From NCBI RefSeq assembly GCF_022919715.1, contig NZ_CP095042.1, positions 4,186,164 through 4,250,163 of the forward strand: a stretch of 64,000 bases of DNA, in the 5' to 3' direction. Origin of the DNA: Agromyces sp. H17E-10. GTDB taxonomy: Bacteria; Actinomycetota; Actinomycetes; Actinomycetales; Microbacteriaceae. Every line of letters begins with the position of its first letter. Positions within the stretch are counted from its first letter, which is position 1. Shown in pieces: positions 38,092-44,104 of this stretch. The notes below the pieces were generated by a model. That model saw only the letters and a program-made list of their open reading frames with translations, was not told where the DNA came from and ran no database searches. Position numbers and translations under genes: made by a program.

Positions 38092-39300
38092 GTGGACACC
38101 GACGCGCTGAAGCGCACCTGGTCGCTCGCCGAGACGCTCGGCGACGAGGTCCCGCTCTTCTTCTACTCGCATCTCTTCTACACGCACCCCGAACTGCGAG
38201 CGATGTTCCCGGTCTCGATGGCCACCCAGCGAGACCGGCTCGTCGGTGCGCTCGGGCGCATCGTCTCCAACGTCGACCGACTCGACGACGTGACGGCGTT
38301 CATCCAGCAACTCGGCCGTGACCACCGACGCTTCCAGGTGGTCGCCGAGCACTACGACGCCGTGGGGCTCTCACTCCTCACGACTCTCAAGCACTTCCTC
38401 GGCGACCAGTGGACGCCCGAACTCGCCGCCGACTGGGCCGCGGCCTACGGCGTCATCGCCACCGTCATGGTGCAGGCTGCCGAGGAGTCCGAGCAGACGA
38501 GCCCCGCCGCCTGGGAGGGGCACGTCATCGCCGTCGAGCGCCGCAACATGGAACTCGCGGTGGTGCAGGTGCGCCCCGAGCCCGAGATGTCGTTCGAGCC
38601 CGGGCAGTCGGTGGCGGTCGAGACGAGCTACGCGCCCCGGCTCTGGCGCTATCTCAGCATCGCGAATGCGCCGCGTGATGACGGAACGCTCGAGTTCCAT
38701 GTGCAGCTCGTGCCCGGAGGACAGGTGTCGAGCGCGATCGTGCGCAAGCTCAAGGTCGGCGATGTGCTGCGCCTCGGCGCACCCGTCGGGAACGAACTGA
38801 CCCTCGGTACCGACGAGCACGCTCGCGACCTCCTCATGGTCGCCGGCGGCACCGGGTTCGCCCCGCTCCGAGCCCACCTCGAGCGGATCGACCTGGCCTG
38901 GCAGCGGACCGGCGAGGCGCCGCGCGTGCACCTGTTCCACGGCGCGCGGGTGCCGTGGAACCTCTACGAGCACCGCCTGCTGCAGAGTCTCGCCGGCCGG
39001 CCGTGGTTCAGCTACACCCCCGTGGTCTCCGACGACCCGAGCTACCCGGGGCGGAAGGGACTGGTCGGCGATGCCGCCGTGGCCGAGGGACTCCGTCCCG
39101 ACGCGGTCGCGATGGTGTGCGGTTCGCCCGCCATGGTCAAGCACACGCTCGCCCGACTCCGCGACGCCGGCGTCGCGTCGGACGATCTCCGATTCGAGCA
39201 GTTCGCCACGCTCGAGGACGAGAGCCTGGAAGGCCGCAACGGCATCCGAGATGGGCAGCCCGCCGGGCAGCCCGCCGAACGAATGGGAAGTGCCCGATGA
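38092..39300 (+). CDS. Flavohemoglobin-like protein (globin plus FAD/NAD reductase)
   Basis: A 402-residue two-domain protein. The globin (1-140) has Tyr25 at the B10 position (FFYSHLF) and His78 as proximal ligand (LGRDHRRF). The reductase follows: FAD motif RYLS where Hmp has RxYS, the NAD motif VAGGTGFAPLRA and VCGSPAMV. This is the layout of nitric oxide dioxygenase Hmp, although the FAD motif and the C-terminal tail (Gly/Asn-rich, no Hmp ending) differ. The GTG start is next to a short leader frame and the stop overlaps the start of a DivIVA-like gene, so control by oxygen or NO may be joined to cell-wall growth. Confidence 0.85.
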   Translation: MDTDALKRTWSLAETLGDEVPLFFYSHLFYTHPELRAMFPVSMATQRDRLVGALGRIVSNVDRLDDVTAFIQQLGRDHRRFQVVAEHYDAVGLSLLTTLKHFLGDQWTPELAADWAAAYGVIATVMVQAAEESEQTSPAAWEGHVIAVERRNMELAVVQVRPEPEMSFEPGQSVAVETSYAPRLWRYLSIANAPRDDGTLEFHVQLVPGGQVSSAIVRKLKVGDVLRLGAPVGNELTLGTDEHARDLLMVAGGTGFAPLRAHLERIDLAWQRTGEAPRVHLFHGARVPWNLYEHRLLQSLAGRPWFSYTPVVSDDPSYPGRKGLVGDAAVAEGLRPDAVAMVCGSPAMVKHTLARLRDAGVASDDLRFEQFATLEDESLEGRNGIRDGQPAGQPAERMGSAR

Positions 39301-40199: not shown

Positions 40200-41396
40200 A
40201 TGCGGGGCGAGGCGACCGTGCTGCATGCCGACCTCGACGCCTTCTACGCCTCCGTCGAGCAACGCGATTCACCCGAGTTGCGCGGCCGGCCGGTGATCGT
40301 CGGCGGAGGCGTCGTGCTCGCGGCGAGCTATGAGGCGAAGGCGCGCGGCGTCCGCACCGCGATGGGAGGCCGTCAGGCCCGCGATCTGTGCCCCGACGCC
40401 GTGGTCGTCCCGCCCAGGATGGATGCGTACGCGGCGGCGAGCCGAGCCGTGTTCGCGATCTTCCGCGACACGACGCCGTTCGTCGAGGGCCTGTCCATCG
40501 ATGAGGCGTTCCTCGAGGTCGGCGGGCTCCGTCGGATCGCGGGTACACCCGAGCAGATCGCCACCGGCCTCCGGGCGCGCGTCCGGTCCGAGGCCGGCCT
40601 CGCCATCTCCGTCGGGGTCGCGCGCACCAAGTTCCTCGCGAAGGTCGCCAGCGCCGTCAGCAAGCCCGACGGCCTGCTCGTGGTCGAGCCCGAGCGCGAG
40701 GAGCAGTTCCTGCTCCCGCTGCCCGTCGAGCGCCTGTGGGGTGTCGGTGCGGTGACCGCAGAGAAGCTGCACCGGCTCGGCATCACGACCGTCGGGCAGT
40801 TGGCCGAGCTCGAGGGCGCGGTCGCCGAGCGGCTGCTCGGCAAGGCGACGGGCGCACACCTGCATGCGCTGGCGAGGCTCCGTGATCCGCGTCCGGTCGA
40901 CACCGCGCGCCGCCGCGGCTCCATCGGCTCCCAGCGCGCGCTCGGCGCTCGTGCGCGCTCGGCCGACGAACTCGGCGTCATCCTGACGCAGATCGTCGAT
41001 CGACTCGCCCGGCGCCTGCGCGACGGCGACCGCGTGTGTCGCACGGTCGTGCTGAGGCTGCGTTTCGGCGACTTCGCGAAGGCGACCCGGTCGCGCACGC
41101 TCGGCTCTGCGACCGACCGCACGAGCGTGCTGCTGGCCATCGCGCGGGAGCTCCTCGACGGCGCGCTCCCCGAGATCGCCGAGCGCGGCATCACCCTAGT
41201 CGGCGTCTCGTTCTCGCAGCTGGCTCGCGCCGACAGCCTTCAGCCCGAGCTGCCGATCGACTGGGACGACGGTGCCCGCCTCGACACGGTGCTCGACACG
41301 GTGCGAGATCGATTCGGCGCGGCATCCGTCACGAGGGCTGCGCAGCTCGGCCGCGACCCGGGCTGGTCGCCGCCGCAGCTGCCCGAGCACGAATGA
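40200..41396 (+). CDS. dinB: DNA polymerase IV (Y family)
   Basis: Low-fidelity translesion polymerase of 398 residues. The metal-binding motifs are intact: LHADLDAFYASVEQ and SIDEAFLEV. The helix-hairpin-helix segment GVGAVTAEKLHRLGITTVGQLAEL and the little-finger domain follow. No beta-clamp binding peptide is obvious at the C-terminus, which ends WSPPQLPEHE. GGGAGG lies four bases before the ATG. I see no LexA box in the upstream 75 bases. Confidence 0.95.
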   Translation: MRGEATVLHADLDAFYASVEQRDSPELRGRPVIVGGGVVLAASYEAKARGVRTAMGGRQARDLCPDAVVVPPRMDAYAAASRAVFAIFRDTTPFVEGLSIDEAFLEVGGLRRIAGTPEQIATGLRARVRSEAGLAISVGVARTKFLAKVASAVSKPDGLLVVEPEREEQFLLPLPVERLWGVGAVTAEKLHRLGITTVGQLAELEGAVAERLLGKATGAHLHALARLRDPRPVDTARRRGSIGSQRALGARARSADELGVILTQIVDRLARRLRDGDRVCRTVVLRLRFGDFAKATRSRTLGSATDRTSVLLAIARELLDGALPEIAERGITLVGVSFSQLARADSLQPELPIDWDDGARLDTVLDTVRDRFGAASVTRAAQLGRDPGWSPPQLPEHE

Positions 41397-41456
41397 CGGG
41401 CAGGCGCTGCGACGAAGCGTCTCCTGTATGGCGAATCTTGCGCCCAGCGCAAGGGG

Positions 41457-41486
41457 TTGGGGTGGTTCTGCACGCGTTGATACGTT
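41457..41486 (+). promoter_or_regulatory. Promoter of the DUF1704/ATP-grasp pair
   Basis: TTGGGG (41457-41462), 18-base spacer, TACGTT (41481-41486), then six bases and the ATG at 41493. The mRNA should be leaderless. Confidence 0.5.
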
Positions 41487-41492
41487 CATGAG

Positions 41493-42674
41493 ATGTCATC
41501 ACCTTCCGAGGAGCTGGCCCCCGCGCTCGACATCGACCGTCGGCTCACCGAGATCGAGCGTCGCGTCGATCTGCTCGTGAACGTCACGCCTCTCAACGCG
41601 TCGGACGCATGGACCGACTTCGAACGCAGCGACTTCGGCACAGCCCCGTCCCTCCAGCTGCGGGCGCTGGACTTCGACCCCGACCTCACGCGGCGCGACC
41701 TGTACGACCTCGAGGTCGAAGAGGTGGACGATCCGGCGCTGCACGCGCTCTTCCGCGCGAAACGGGACGAGATCGCCCGGCAGATCACGGCGCTGGAGGA
41801 CCGAGACACCTCACGCTTCGTCTACGGGTCTCTCCAGCTCTACGGAACAGTGGCGCCGCCGCTCGCGGCGGCGGCGGCAGAACTGCTCGAGACCGTCCCA
41901 CCGCAGGCGCCCAGCACCCAGACCGTCACCGCTGAGGCGTTCGCCGACGCGGCGCGTGCGGAATTCGAGCGGTATCGCGCGGTGTATCCGGATTTCCCGG
42001 TCCGTGTCGAAGTCCGGGACGACATCTCGGAGCTGATGGTGTCGTTCGGTCGGCTCCTCATCCCCGAGTCCGCCGCCTTCCGGGCCGACCGGGTCGAACC
42101 CCTCCTGCACCACGAGGTCGGCACTCATGTGGTCACGTACCAGAACGGGGCTCGACAACCGCTGACGCTGCTGACGATCGGACTGCCCGGCTACGACGAG
42201 ACCCAGGAAGGTCTCGCCGTGCTCGCCGAATACCTGACCGGCGGACTGGACCCGCGACGACTGCGCGTGCTCGCTGCGCGAGTCGTCGCGGTCGGCCAGA
42301 TGCTCGACGGGGCGGGCCTCCTCGACATCTTCGAGTCGCTCCGGACCGATCACCGCATACCGGCCCGTACGGCGTGGTCCATCGCCATCCGCGTCGTCGT
42401 CGGGGGCGGCTCGGTCAAGGACGCGATCTACCTGCGCGGGATCGCTCGCATCCTCGACGCGCTCGCCGAGGGCAGCAGCCTCGACCTCCTACTCGTCGGG
42501 AAGCTCGCGCTCGACCACATCCCGCTGGTGCAGGACCTGCTCGACCGAGACGTGCTCCGCGCGCCGTGGATCCGCCCGCGCTGGCTCGATGCACCCGGTG
42601 CACAGGATCGTCTCGACCGGCTGCGCGCCGGCGCGACGGTCACCGACCTCTACGAGGGCGGGGTGGCGGCATGA
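41493..42674 (+). CDS. DUF1704 metallopeptidase-like protein with QEGLA motif
   Basis: A 393-residue member of DUF1704, named in databases for its QEGLA motif as a flavohemoglobin expression modulator. The gluzincin-type zinc site is complete: HEVGTH at 207-212 and ETQEGLA with Gln-Glu near 238-239. The eukaryotic members MATCAP1/2 (KIAA0895L/KIAA0895) are carboxypeptidases that remove the C-terminal Tyr of alpha-tubulin, so a carboxypeptidase activity is a fair inference; the substrate here is unknown. Its stop overlaps the start of an ATP-grasp ligase (ATGA). No signal peptide is seen. Confidence 0.85.
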   Translation: MSSPSEELAPALDIDRRLTEIERRVDLLVNVTPLNASDAWTDFERSDFGTAPSLQLRALDFDPDLTRRDLYDLEVEEVDDPALHALFRAKRDEIARQITALEDRDTSRFVYGSLQLYGTVAPPLAAAAAELLETVPPQAPSTQTVTAEAFADAARAEFERYRAVYPDFPVRVEVRDDISELMVSFGRLLIPESAAFRADRVEPLLHHEVGTHVVTYQNGARQPLTLLTIGLPGYDETQEGLAVLAEYLTGGLDPRRLRVLAARVVAVGQMLDGAGLLDIFESLRTDHRIPARTAWSIAIRVVVGGGSVKDAIYLRGIARILDALAEGSSLDLLLVGKLALDHIPLVQDLLDRDVLRAPWIRPRWLDAPGAQDRLDRLRAGATVTDLYEGGVAA

Positions 42675-43669
42675 AGCTCGCATTCCTCGTCAACGACGTC
42701 GACACCGAGGTGGACGAGTACGCGACCACCCGACTGGCCAGGGCCGCCGCGAGGAGCGGGCACGAGGCTTGGTACGTCGGCGTGGGCGACCTCGAGCTGG
42801 GCAGTCATGACGGGCTCTTCGCGGCGAGGGCTCGCCCCGCGACGTGGAAGCGCCGCGACGACCTCGCGAGCTTCATGGAGCGGATCAAGGCGTGCGAGGC
42901 CGAGCGGATCGTCATGGACGAACTGGACGCGCTCGTCCTCCGCAACGAGTCGATCGACGACCTGCAGGCGCGCCCGTGGGCCAGCCCGATGGGCGTGGTG
43001 TTCGGACAGATGCTCGCCGCCCGCGGTGTCACGGTGGTCAACGACCCGAACACCCTCCATCGTGCGACCAGCAAGCTCTACCTGGAGGAGTTCCCCGAGA
43101 CCGTCCGGCCGCGGTCGCTCGTGACCCGCAGCCCGGAGGCGATCCAGCAGTTCGTCGACGAGGTCGGACACTGCGTCGTCAAACCGCTGTACGGGGCGAA
43201 GGGGCGCAACGTCTTCATGATCGACGGTCCCGGAGAGACCAACCTCGCGCAGATGACGGAGGCCGTGCTGCAGGACGGCTACGCCATCGTCCAGGAGTTC
43301 ATCGACGCAACCGATGACGGTGATGCCCGGATCTTCCTGCTGGAGGGACGCATCCTCGAGCGAGACGGACGGCCTGCCGCCTTCCGGCGCGTGCCCACCG
43401 GGAACGACCCGCGCGCCAACATCAGCACCGGCGGTCAGTCGGTGCCGCTCGAGATCGGTGCGCCCGTGCTCGGCATCGTCGAGGCGATGCACGACAAGCT
43501 CATCGCGGACGGCATGTTCCTCGTCGGGATCGACGTGATCGGCAGCCACGTCGTGGAGATCAACGCGGAGAGTCCCGGCGGCTTCCAGAGCGTCGAGCGG
43601 CTCTACGGCATCGACGTCGCCGAGACCGTCATCGAGGCCCTCGAGCGCCGTGCGATGCCGCCGTCCTGA
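42671..43669 (+). CDS. ATP-grasp ligase, glutathione synthetase-like
   Basis: A 332-residue ATP-grasp enzyme similar to GshB and RimK-type ligases, which join a carboxylate to an amine through an acyl phosphate. Nucleotide-site features are VNDPNTLHRATSKLY, VVKPLYGAKGRNVFMI, IVQEFID and the metal-binding Glu/Asn in HVVEINAESPGGFQ. Actinobacteria of this type usually use mycothiol, not glutathione, and no gamma-glutamylcysteine synthetase is nearby, so real glutathione synthesis is unlikely. The overlap with a DUF1704 peptidase suggests that the two act on the same peptide. The start at 42671 is fixed by the ATGA overlap. Confidence 0.85.
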   Translation: MKLAFLVNDVDTEVDEYATTRLARAAARSGHEAWYVGVGDLELGSHDGLFAARARPATWKRRDDLASFMERIKACEAERIVMDELDALVLRNESIDDLQARPWASPMGVVFGQMLAARGVTVVNDPNTLHRATSKLYLEEFPETVRPRSLVTRSPEAIQQFVDEVGHCVVKPLYGAKGRNVFMIDGPGETNLAQMTEAVLQDGYAIVQEFIDATDDGDARIFLLEGRILERDGRPAAFRRVPTGNDPRANISTGGQSVPLEIGAPVLGIVEAMHDKLIADGMFLVGIDVIGSHVVEINAESPGGFQSVERLYGIDVAETVIEALERRAMPPS

Positions 43670-43744
43670 GCCGTCCGCCCATCGAGCGGCAGGGCCGGCG
43701 CGCTCACGTGGGCGGATGCTTCGGCTCCCGGATGACCGCCTGAT

Positions 43745-44104
43745 TCACCCTGGGCCATCGGGGTACGCGAGATCGTAGGCGCGCGAGACCTTCTGCGGGA
43801 CGACCATGCGCCAGGCATCGACCACGAACTCGCGCGCCTCGCTCGGCTCCAGAGCAGCAAGTTCGGCATGAACCCAGTTGAAGCGCATGTCGGTAGGCGA
43901 CGGCAGTTGGAACTTGTGCGGCTGGCCCCCGACGAGCGCTGCCCGTTCCTCCTTCGGGAACGCGAAGCCCATCACGGTTTCGTCGAGGGAGAACGCGACG
44001 TAGACCAGCTGTCCGACGCGGAACTTCAACCTGTCGCGTACGTACACCTCGTACGACCGCTCGAGCTCGGTGCCCAGACGACGTACGTCTTCGAGTCGCG
44101 CCAT
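43745..44104 (-). CDS. MmcQ/YjbR family protein
   Basis: A 119-residue small protein with the CyaY-like fold family features VAFSLDETVMGFAFPKEER, FNWVHAELAAL and the C-terminal VVDAWRMVVPQKVSRAY. The family is annotated as DNA-binding but evidence is slight. TAGGGT lies six bases upstream of the ATG, so the mRNA is probably leaderless. Confidence 0.85.
   Translation of the reverse strand: MARLEDVRRLGTELERSYEVYVRDRLKFRVGQLVYVAFSLDETVMGFAFPKEERAALVGGQPHKFQLPSPTDMRFNWVHAELAALEPSEAREFVVDAWRMVVPQKVSRAYDLAYPDGPG

Follow-up and report, generated by a model that had tools for sequence, protein, structure and literature searches.

The end of the 4.25-Mb, one-contig genome of the actinobacterium Agromyces sp. 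H17E-10 raises the question of why a bacterium would couple the gene for a relative of the animal carboxypeptidases MATCAP1/2, which trim tubulin, to the gene for an ATP-grasp ligase. Both genes lie in the 64,000-nucleotide stretch analysed here (contig NZ_CP095042.1, positions 4,186,164 to 4,250,163; hereafter the window). The first encodes a protein of the DUF1704/MATCAP family (hereafter DUF1704), the second a ligase related to the glutathione synthase GshB. A sequence-only reading had proposed that the two enzymes add and remove a residue at a protein or peptide C-terminus. The observation behind it was confirmed, i.e. both genes are present, overlap and are paired beyond chance; the interpretation was supported in part, the zinc site, fold, catalytic residues and adjacency holding and the points on TTL, glutathione and tyrosine being unsupported or weakened. 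We give roughly even credence to the view that the pair is a two-protein reduction of an ancient module with three parts, composed of N-formylglutamate amidohydrolase (FGase, PF05013), DUF1704 and a GshB-type ATP-grasp ligase, in which the last two would act in opposite directions on a small peptide.

Pairing of the two genes and their third partner

A genome-collection search with the window DUF1704 returned 30 loci, and the ligase gene directly followed in 30/30; the closest named relatives of the DUF1704 came from Agromyces spp. (88-91% identity) and one Cellulomonas (90%). As this search favours close relatives, blind genome sampling was added. Within the genus, PF08014 (the Pfam MATCAP profile) was found in 15/60 genomes; a ligase match above 320 bits adjoined it in all 15, whereas none of the other 45 genomes held one above 90 bits. 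The chance of such an agreement for random sets is 1.9e-14, ignoring kinship. The earlier expectation of conserved adjacency and co-occurrence was therefore borne out (15/15 versus 0/45). Among 197 genomes of the phylum, nine carried PF08014, four of them with a strong ligase beside it, and no PF08014-free genome had a strong ligase.

The junction between the two genes is also conserved. With reading frames checked, the ATGA overlap first noticed in the window recurs as a four-base overlap in 27/30 related loci (26 ATGA, 1 GTGA), while of the other three, one has a one-base overlap and two have gaps, of 1 and 4 bases. In Photobacterium the gene order is reversed and the linkage kept. Tree distances of the two proteins correlated over the 30 short-form loci (r 0.93; at most 0.63 in 2000 label shuffles), which is support for coevolution and not proof, because shared descent alone can yield it. 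In a FastTree phylogeny of 56 DUF1704 proteins (supports not printed), the ligase-linked loci cluster, except for Photobacterium, which groups with Vibrio. There are two DUF1704 classes, and that of the window is the paired one. Divergent actinobacterial DUF1704 without a strong ligase were seen at loci L032, L033, L034, L036 and L039.

These data bear on the possibility that two unrelated enzymes share nothing more than a transcript. Stress promoters are generally known to gather many unrelated genes, and DUF1704 and the ligase are each also found alone. We nevertheless consider this explanation improbable, given the perfect co-occurrence in the genus sample, the conserved gene overlap, the linkage that outlasts reversed order in Photobacterium and the FGase as a partner shared through operon and fusion.

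The FGase supplies the third conserved gene that had been looked for, as it is an operon or fusion partner of the module in other lineages. Over loci L001-L043 it was the only neighbouring family present in five loci, all others reaching at most four; in the same set, none of the window's open reading frames between 33 and 52 kb, the pair's own excepted, was matched in at least four loci. The PF05013 profile had no match in the genome of the window, so this genome holds two of the three parts that other lineages combine. Additionally, the long-form DUF1704 (P0241, residues 35-236; L031, 5949-7871) carries an FGase-fold domain without a Pfam match, which seems to lack the FGase motifs, and a separate true FGase gene adjoins it.

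Catalytic sites and the candidate substrate

DUF1704 scored 313 bits against PF08014 (gathering cut-off 27) and has the MATCAP fold, which places it in this family. Fold and zinc site are common to it and MATCAP1/2 (TMCP1/2), at ~21% identity over the structural alignment; unlike these, it is encoded in a bacterial operon together with an ATP-grasp ligase and, in other lineages, FGase. Its nearly full-length match to TIGR02421, the equivalog named 'flavohemoglobin expression-modulating QEGLA motif protein', stayed under the curated cut-off (309.4 versus 338.65 bits). The zinc site is indeed intact: H207, E208, G210, T211 and H212, as well as Q238, E239, G240 and A242, are invariant across 51 aligned DUF1704 sequences, and in the alignment with human MATCAP, HEVGTH stands opposite HEIGTH and QEGLA opposite EEGLA. 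Carboxypeptidase activity on a C-terminal tail is predicted.

Tyrosine, to which a special place had been given, turned out to be one end residue among several. TMCP1 is reported to process recombinant tubulin with similar efficiency whether the last residue is Tyr, Ala, Glu or Gly (PMC10499314), and DUF1704 therefore need not act on tyrosine. In the experiments described there, TMCP2 favours Glu and Ala ends, and both enzymes are sensitive to residues further in and shorten glutamate chains (PMC10499314).

The second protein contains the ATP-grasp GSH-S domain (PF02955, GSH-S_ATP; 142 bits, cut-off 23) and is similar over its whole length to GshB and to NF009110/PRK12458. R220, R240, R248, D288, E296 and N298 are kept in 50/50 ligases compared (three being same-contig duplicates), and they align with the E. 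coli GshB residues that bind ATP, Mg and the carboxylate. The ligase differs from both GshB and NF009110/PRK12458 in lying under every cut-off, in having no adjoining FGase and in reading SPGG instead of SPT, with Gly at position 303 after Ser-Pro where three canonical GshB have Thr. The three glutathione-synthase models that it matches all scored too low; the cut-offs were missed for NF009110/PRK12458, the best NCBIfam model (319.8 versus 408 bits), for TIGR01380 (182.8 versus 299.05) and for NF003573 (184.2 versus 272); relatives from S. meliloti and Photobacterium pass NF009110/PRK12458 with 501 and 488 bits. Hence the ATP-grasp and GshB-like nature of the ligase stood, with its catalytic residues, and its likening to TTL did not, no TTL domain being found among its four Pfam matches at E <= 0.001.

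In the module that we favour, the ligase would use ATP to convert the C-terminal carboxylate of a small peptide into an acyl-phosphate and then couple an amino acid, the zinc carboxypeptidase would hydrolyse the same C-terminal bond, and the end residue would be set by the ratio of the two enzymes. In other lineages, FGase, or an apparently inactive copy fused to DUF1704, would handle the N-acyl-glutamyl end. Such an opposed couple is a reasonable model because of the zinc site, the MATCAP fold, the ATP-grasp residues, the adjacency, the co-occurrence and the third gene. An extending ligase, a trimming carboxypeptidase, a linkage that withstands rearrangement and an FGase whose family acts on acyl-glutamate together point to a glutamyl peptide, and the substrate would most likely be such a peptide or a similar metabolite from core metabolism. 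As the pair is patchy in the genus and lies at differing genomic places, the cell would have to provide its substrate independently of any linked gene.

Glutathione synthesis had been judged unlikely in this lineage, which was too strong a statement: a GCS2 protein of the window's genome exceeds the NCBIfam glutamate--cysteine ligase cut-off (533 versus 427 bits), and the family does so in 59/60 genomes of the genus. This gamma-glutamyl ligase, core in the genus, is a candidate source of the module's substrate. It could also supply the gamma-glutamyl dipeptide to a ligase making a glutathione-like gamma-glutamyl tripeptide, with DUF1704 merely salvaging or degrading this or another peptide. 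That alternative agrees with the GshB clade of the ligase, with the Photobacterium module ligase passing NF003573 (292 versus 272 bits) and with the removal of Gly reported as possible for TMCP1 (PMC10499314). We regard it as unlikely, since the window ligase itself fails the glutathione-synthase models and has Gly at position 303, and GCS2 does not track the pair (59/60 against 15/60).

A cycle resembling tubulin tyrosination, in which the ligase would extend the C-terminus of a cellular protein by a residue that DUF1704 would take off again, draws on the fold and zinc site shared with the tail-trimming MATCAP and on the ATP-grasp ligases TTL and RimK, which act on protein termini. RimK adds C-terminal residues and is linked to the gene of the protease RimB; the likeness to our pair is that of a C-terminal ligase with a linked protease, and the differences are the other protease type of RimB and the low RimK scores here (25 bits for the S6-specific model; 75 for the RimK family, cut-off 143). 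A universal target protein would also account for the lack of a substrate gene accompanying the pair. However, the closest relatives of the ligase are GshB, not TTL or RimK, the linked FGase suggests acyl-amino-acid chemistry, and the tail protein sought from the outset was not encountered: no conserved substrate gene or tail protein lies near the pair (neighbourhoods only; no genome-wide tail search was made). We thus attach a low probability to the protein cycle, and a small-peptide substrate fits better. We are just as doubtful of a bolder proposal, by which the pair would be a bacterial forerunner of the tubulin tyrosination cycle, i.e. a reversible code of C-terminal residues, switched by stress, on a conserved bacterial peptide or protein, the ancestral task of MATCAP being to reverse ATP-grasp ligation.

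MATCAP enzymes were reportedly described in animals only recently, by Landskron in 2022 and Nicot in 2023. Both works are cited for MATCAP in PMC12393276. In three phyla, bacterial MATCAP relatives are linked to a peptide ligase, often with FGase and general-stress-type promoter motifs. The module offers a defined, testable operon for finding the ancestral substrate, which would reveal an unrecognised bacterial peptide-modification step, and the names 'glutathione synthase' and 'flavohemoglobin expression-modulating protein', as assigned automatically, may be misleading. The passages returned by a literature search hold no account of the pair as a system, nor of the role of bacterial MATCAP relatives; a 2009 gene-neighbourhood survey of amidoligases may mention the pair.

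Promoter motifs and the stress link

Upstream motifs suggest that, outside the genus of the window, general-stress sigma factors tend to drive the module. Thirty actinobacterial sequences (the window and L002-L030) were scanned over the 60 bases upstream of DUF1704, and 13/30 carried pattern C, G-N2-T-N14-17-GGGTA[C/T], with its end 9-10 bases upstream of the start, against a resampled mean of 0.20 (at most 2) and a prediction of 0.08 from the locus background. Its carriers are Kribbella (8), Nocardioides (2), Terrabacter, Intrasporangium and one Propionibacteriaceae metagenome-assembled genome, and their spacers mostly differ, the median identity being 0.43 and two pairs exceeding 0.8. The motif fits the SigF consensus GGWWT-N16-17-GGGTAY published in PMC7693655. 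Four actinobacterial patterns were tried, all written after the sequences had been seen, and C was the third; pattern B, a GG[TC]A[CT] variant, occurred in 8/30 (resampled mean 0.21) and pattern D, the -10 element alone at a fixed distance, in 17/30 (0.90).

For the rhizobial-type operons, the looser of two patterns tried, GGAAC-N16-19-TT within 170 bases around the FGase start, was present in 11/13 (expected 0.31 by resampling and 0.43 from the locus background). We take GGAAC-(16-18)-GTT to be the general-stress promoter recognised by EcfG, and the looser pattern to be that of S. meliloti RpoE2. RpoE2 acts under heat, osmotic and oxidative stress and under starvation (PMC3616915); the main text of that paper contains none of the terms 'GGAAC', 'glutathione', 'gshB' and 'formylglutamate'.

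In Photobacterium damselae, A0J47_RS17020 (GshB) and A0J47_RS17025 (QEGLA) are reported to be 38-fold and 27.5-fold up in 1% relative to 3% NaCl (PMC10308900); equating them with the module pair rests on their names and consecutive numbers. The Photobacterium ligase that passes NF003573 (L052, 7968-8996) falls in the tree with canonical GshB, and it may be this paralogue, rather than the housekeeping gene, that published remarks on the P. damselae 'GshB' refer to.

Several findings weigh against the three-part module and its stress link. Five of the nine phylum genomes with DUF1704 have no strong ligase; their DUF1704 are divergent, and one (G183) lies at a contig end. No strong ligase was seen either in the annotated neighbourhoods of Vibrio and Pseudoalteromonas DUF1704, and DUF1704 can therefore work without the ligase. 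Conversely, an Ensifer adhaerens plasmid bears a ligase copy (L053, 6001-7047) with no DUF1704 annotated nearby. Action of both enzymes on one bond is an inference. As to the promoters, pattern A (GGTT-N15-17-GGG[TC]A) was found in 8/30 sequences (resampled mean 0.04) and the stricter rhizobial form GGAAC-N15-20-GTT in just 4/13 operons (expected 0.11). Since the patterns are post hoc and the loci non-independent, the counts carry no formal significance. The window has GATACGTT where GGGTAC would be, and so shows no SigB/SigF-type promoter; the other Agromyces-type loci are likewise without pattern C. No SigB/F/G factor in its genome exceeds the cut-off (best 130 of 234 bits), and the signs of a stress link therefore come from other genomes.

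The best match to the SigB/F/G models, at 1489-2172 of the window, is probably another sigma-70-type factor. The neighbours of the Ensifer ligase copy are small stress-type genes (CsbD, ferritin-like, PRC-barrel), and its 200 upstream bases hold no EcfG-type motif.

Features of the locus and neighbouring genes

Table 1. Coordinates of the pair and its motifs in the window
Feature	Position	Strand	Basis
DUF1704/MATCAP-family zinc metallocarboxypeptidase, short form (393 aa)	41493..42674	+	predicted from sequence
GshB-clade ATP-grasp peptide ligase (332 aa)	42671..43669	+	GSH-S_ATP 142 bits; ATG start 42671
ATGA start/stop overlap coupling both genes; DUF1704 stop 42672-42674	42671..42674	+	sequence
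HEVGTH zinc-binding/catalytic motif, residues 207-212	42111..42128	+	sequence; alignment
QEGLA motif, third zinc ligand E239, residues 238-242	42204..42218	+	sequence; alignment
TACGTT, -10-like (TANNNT), six bases 5' of ATG	41481..41486	+	sequence

A single leaderless promoter had been proposed for the pair. The position of TACGTT makes a leaderless start of DUF1704 plausible; a sigma-70 consensus scan of 41300-43900 yielded no promoter and no terminator. An apparent DUF1704-ligase fusion (P0005) is out of frame in the ligase past the overlap and was treated as a frameshift. A PADLOC search for a link to defence systems gave no match for either protein (E <= 0.01), and tblastn of DUF1704 against a phage collection gave none as regards phage carriage.

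A flavohemoglobin-type gene with globin, FAD and NAD domains lies at 38092-39300, 2.2 kb upstream of DUF1704; as a part of the module it was rejected, no match being obtained by tblastn (E <= 1e-10) in 90 loci, many of them short. Rejected too was dinB as a conserved partner, 89-100% identical dinB lying within ~2.5 kb in just 4/15 pair-bearing genomes (G000, G212, G227 and G231), with the pair in opposite orientation in G212 and G231. Finally, the DNA polymerase IV gene at 40200-41396 is itself patchy, an ortholog of 82-100% identity being present in 23/60 genomes of the genus.
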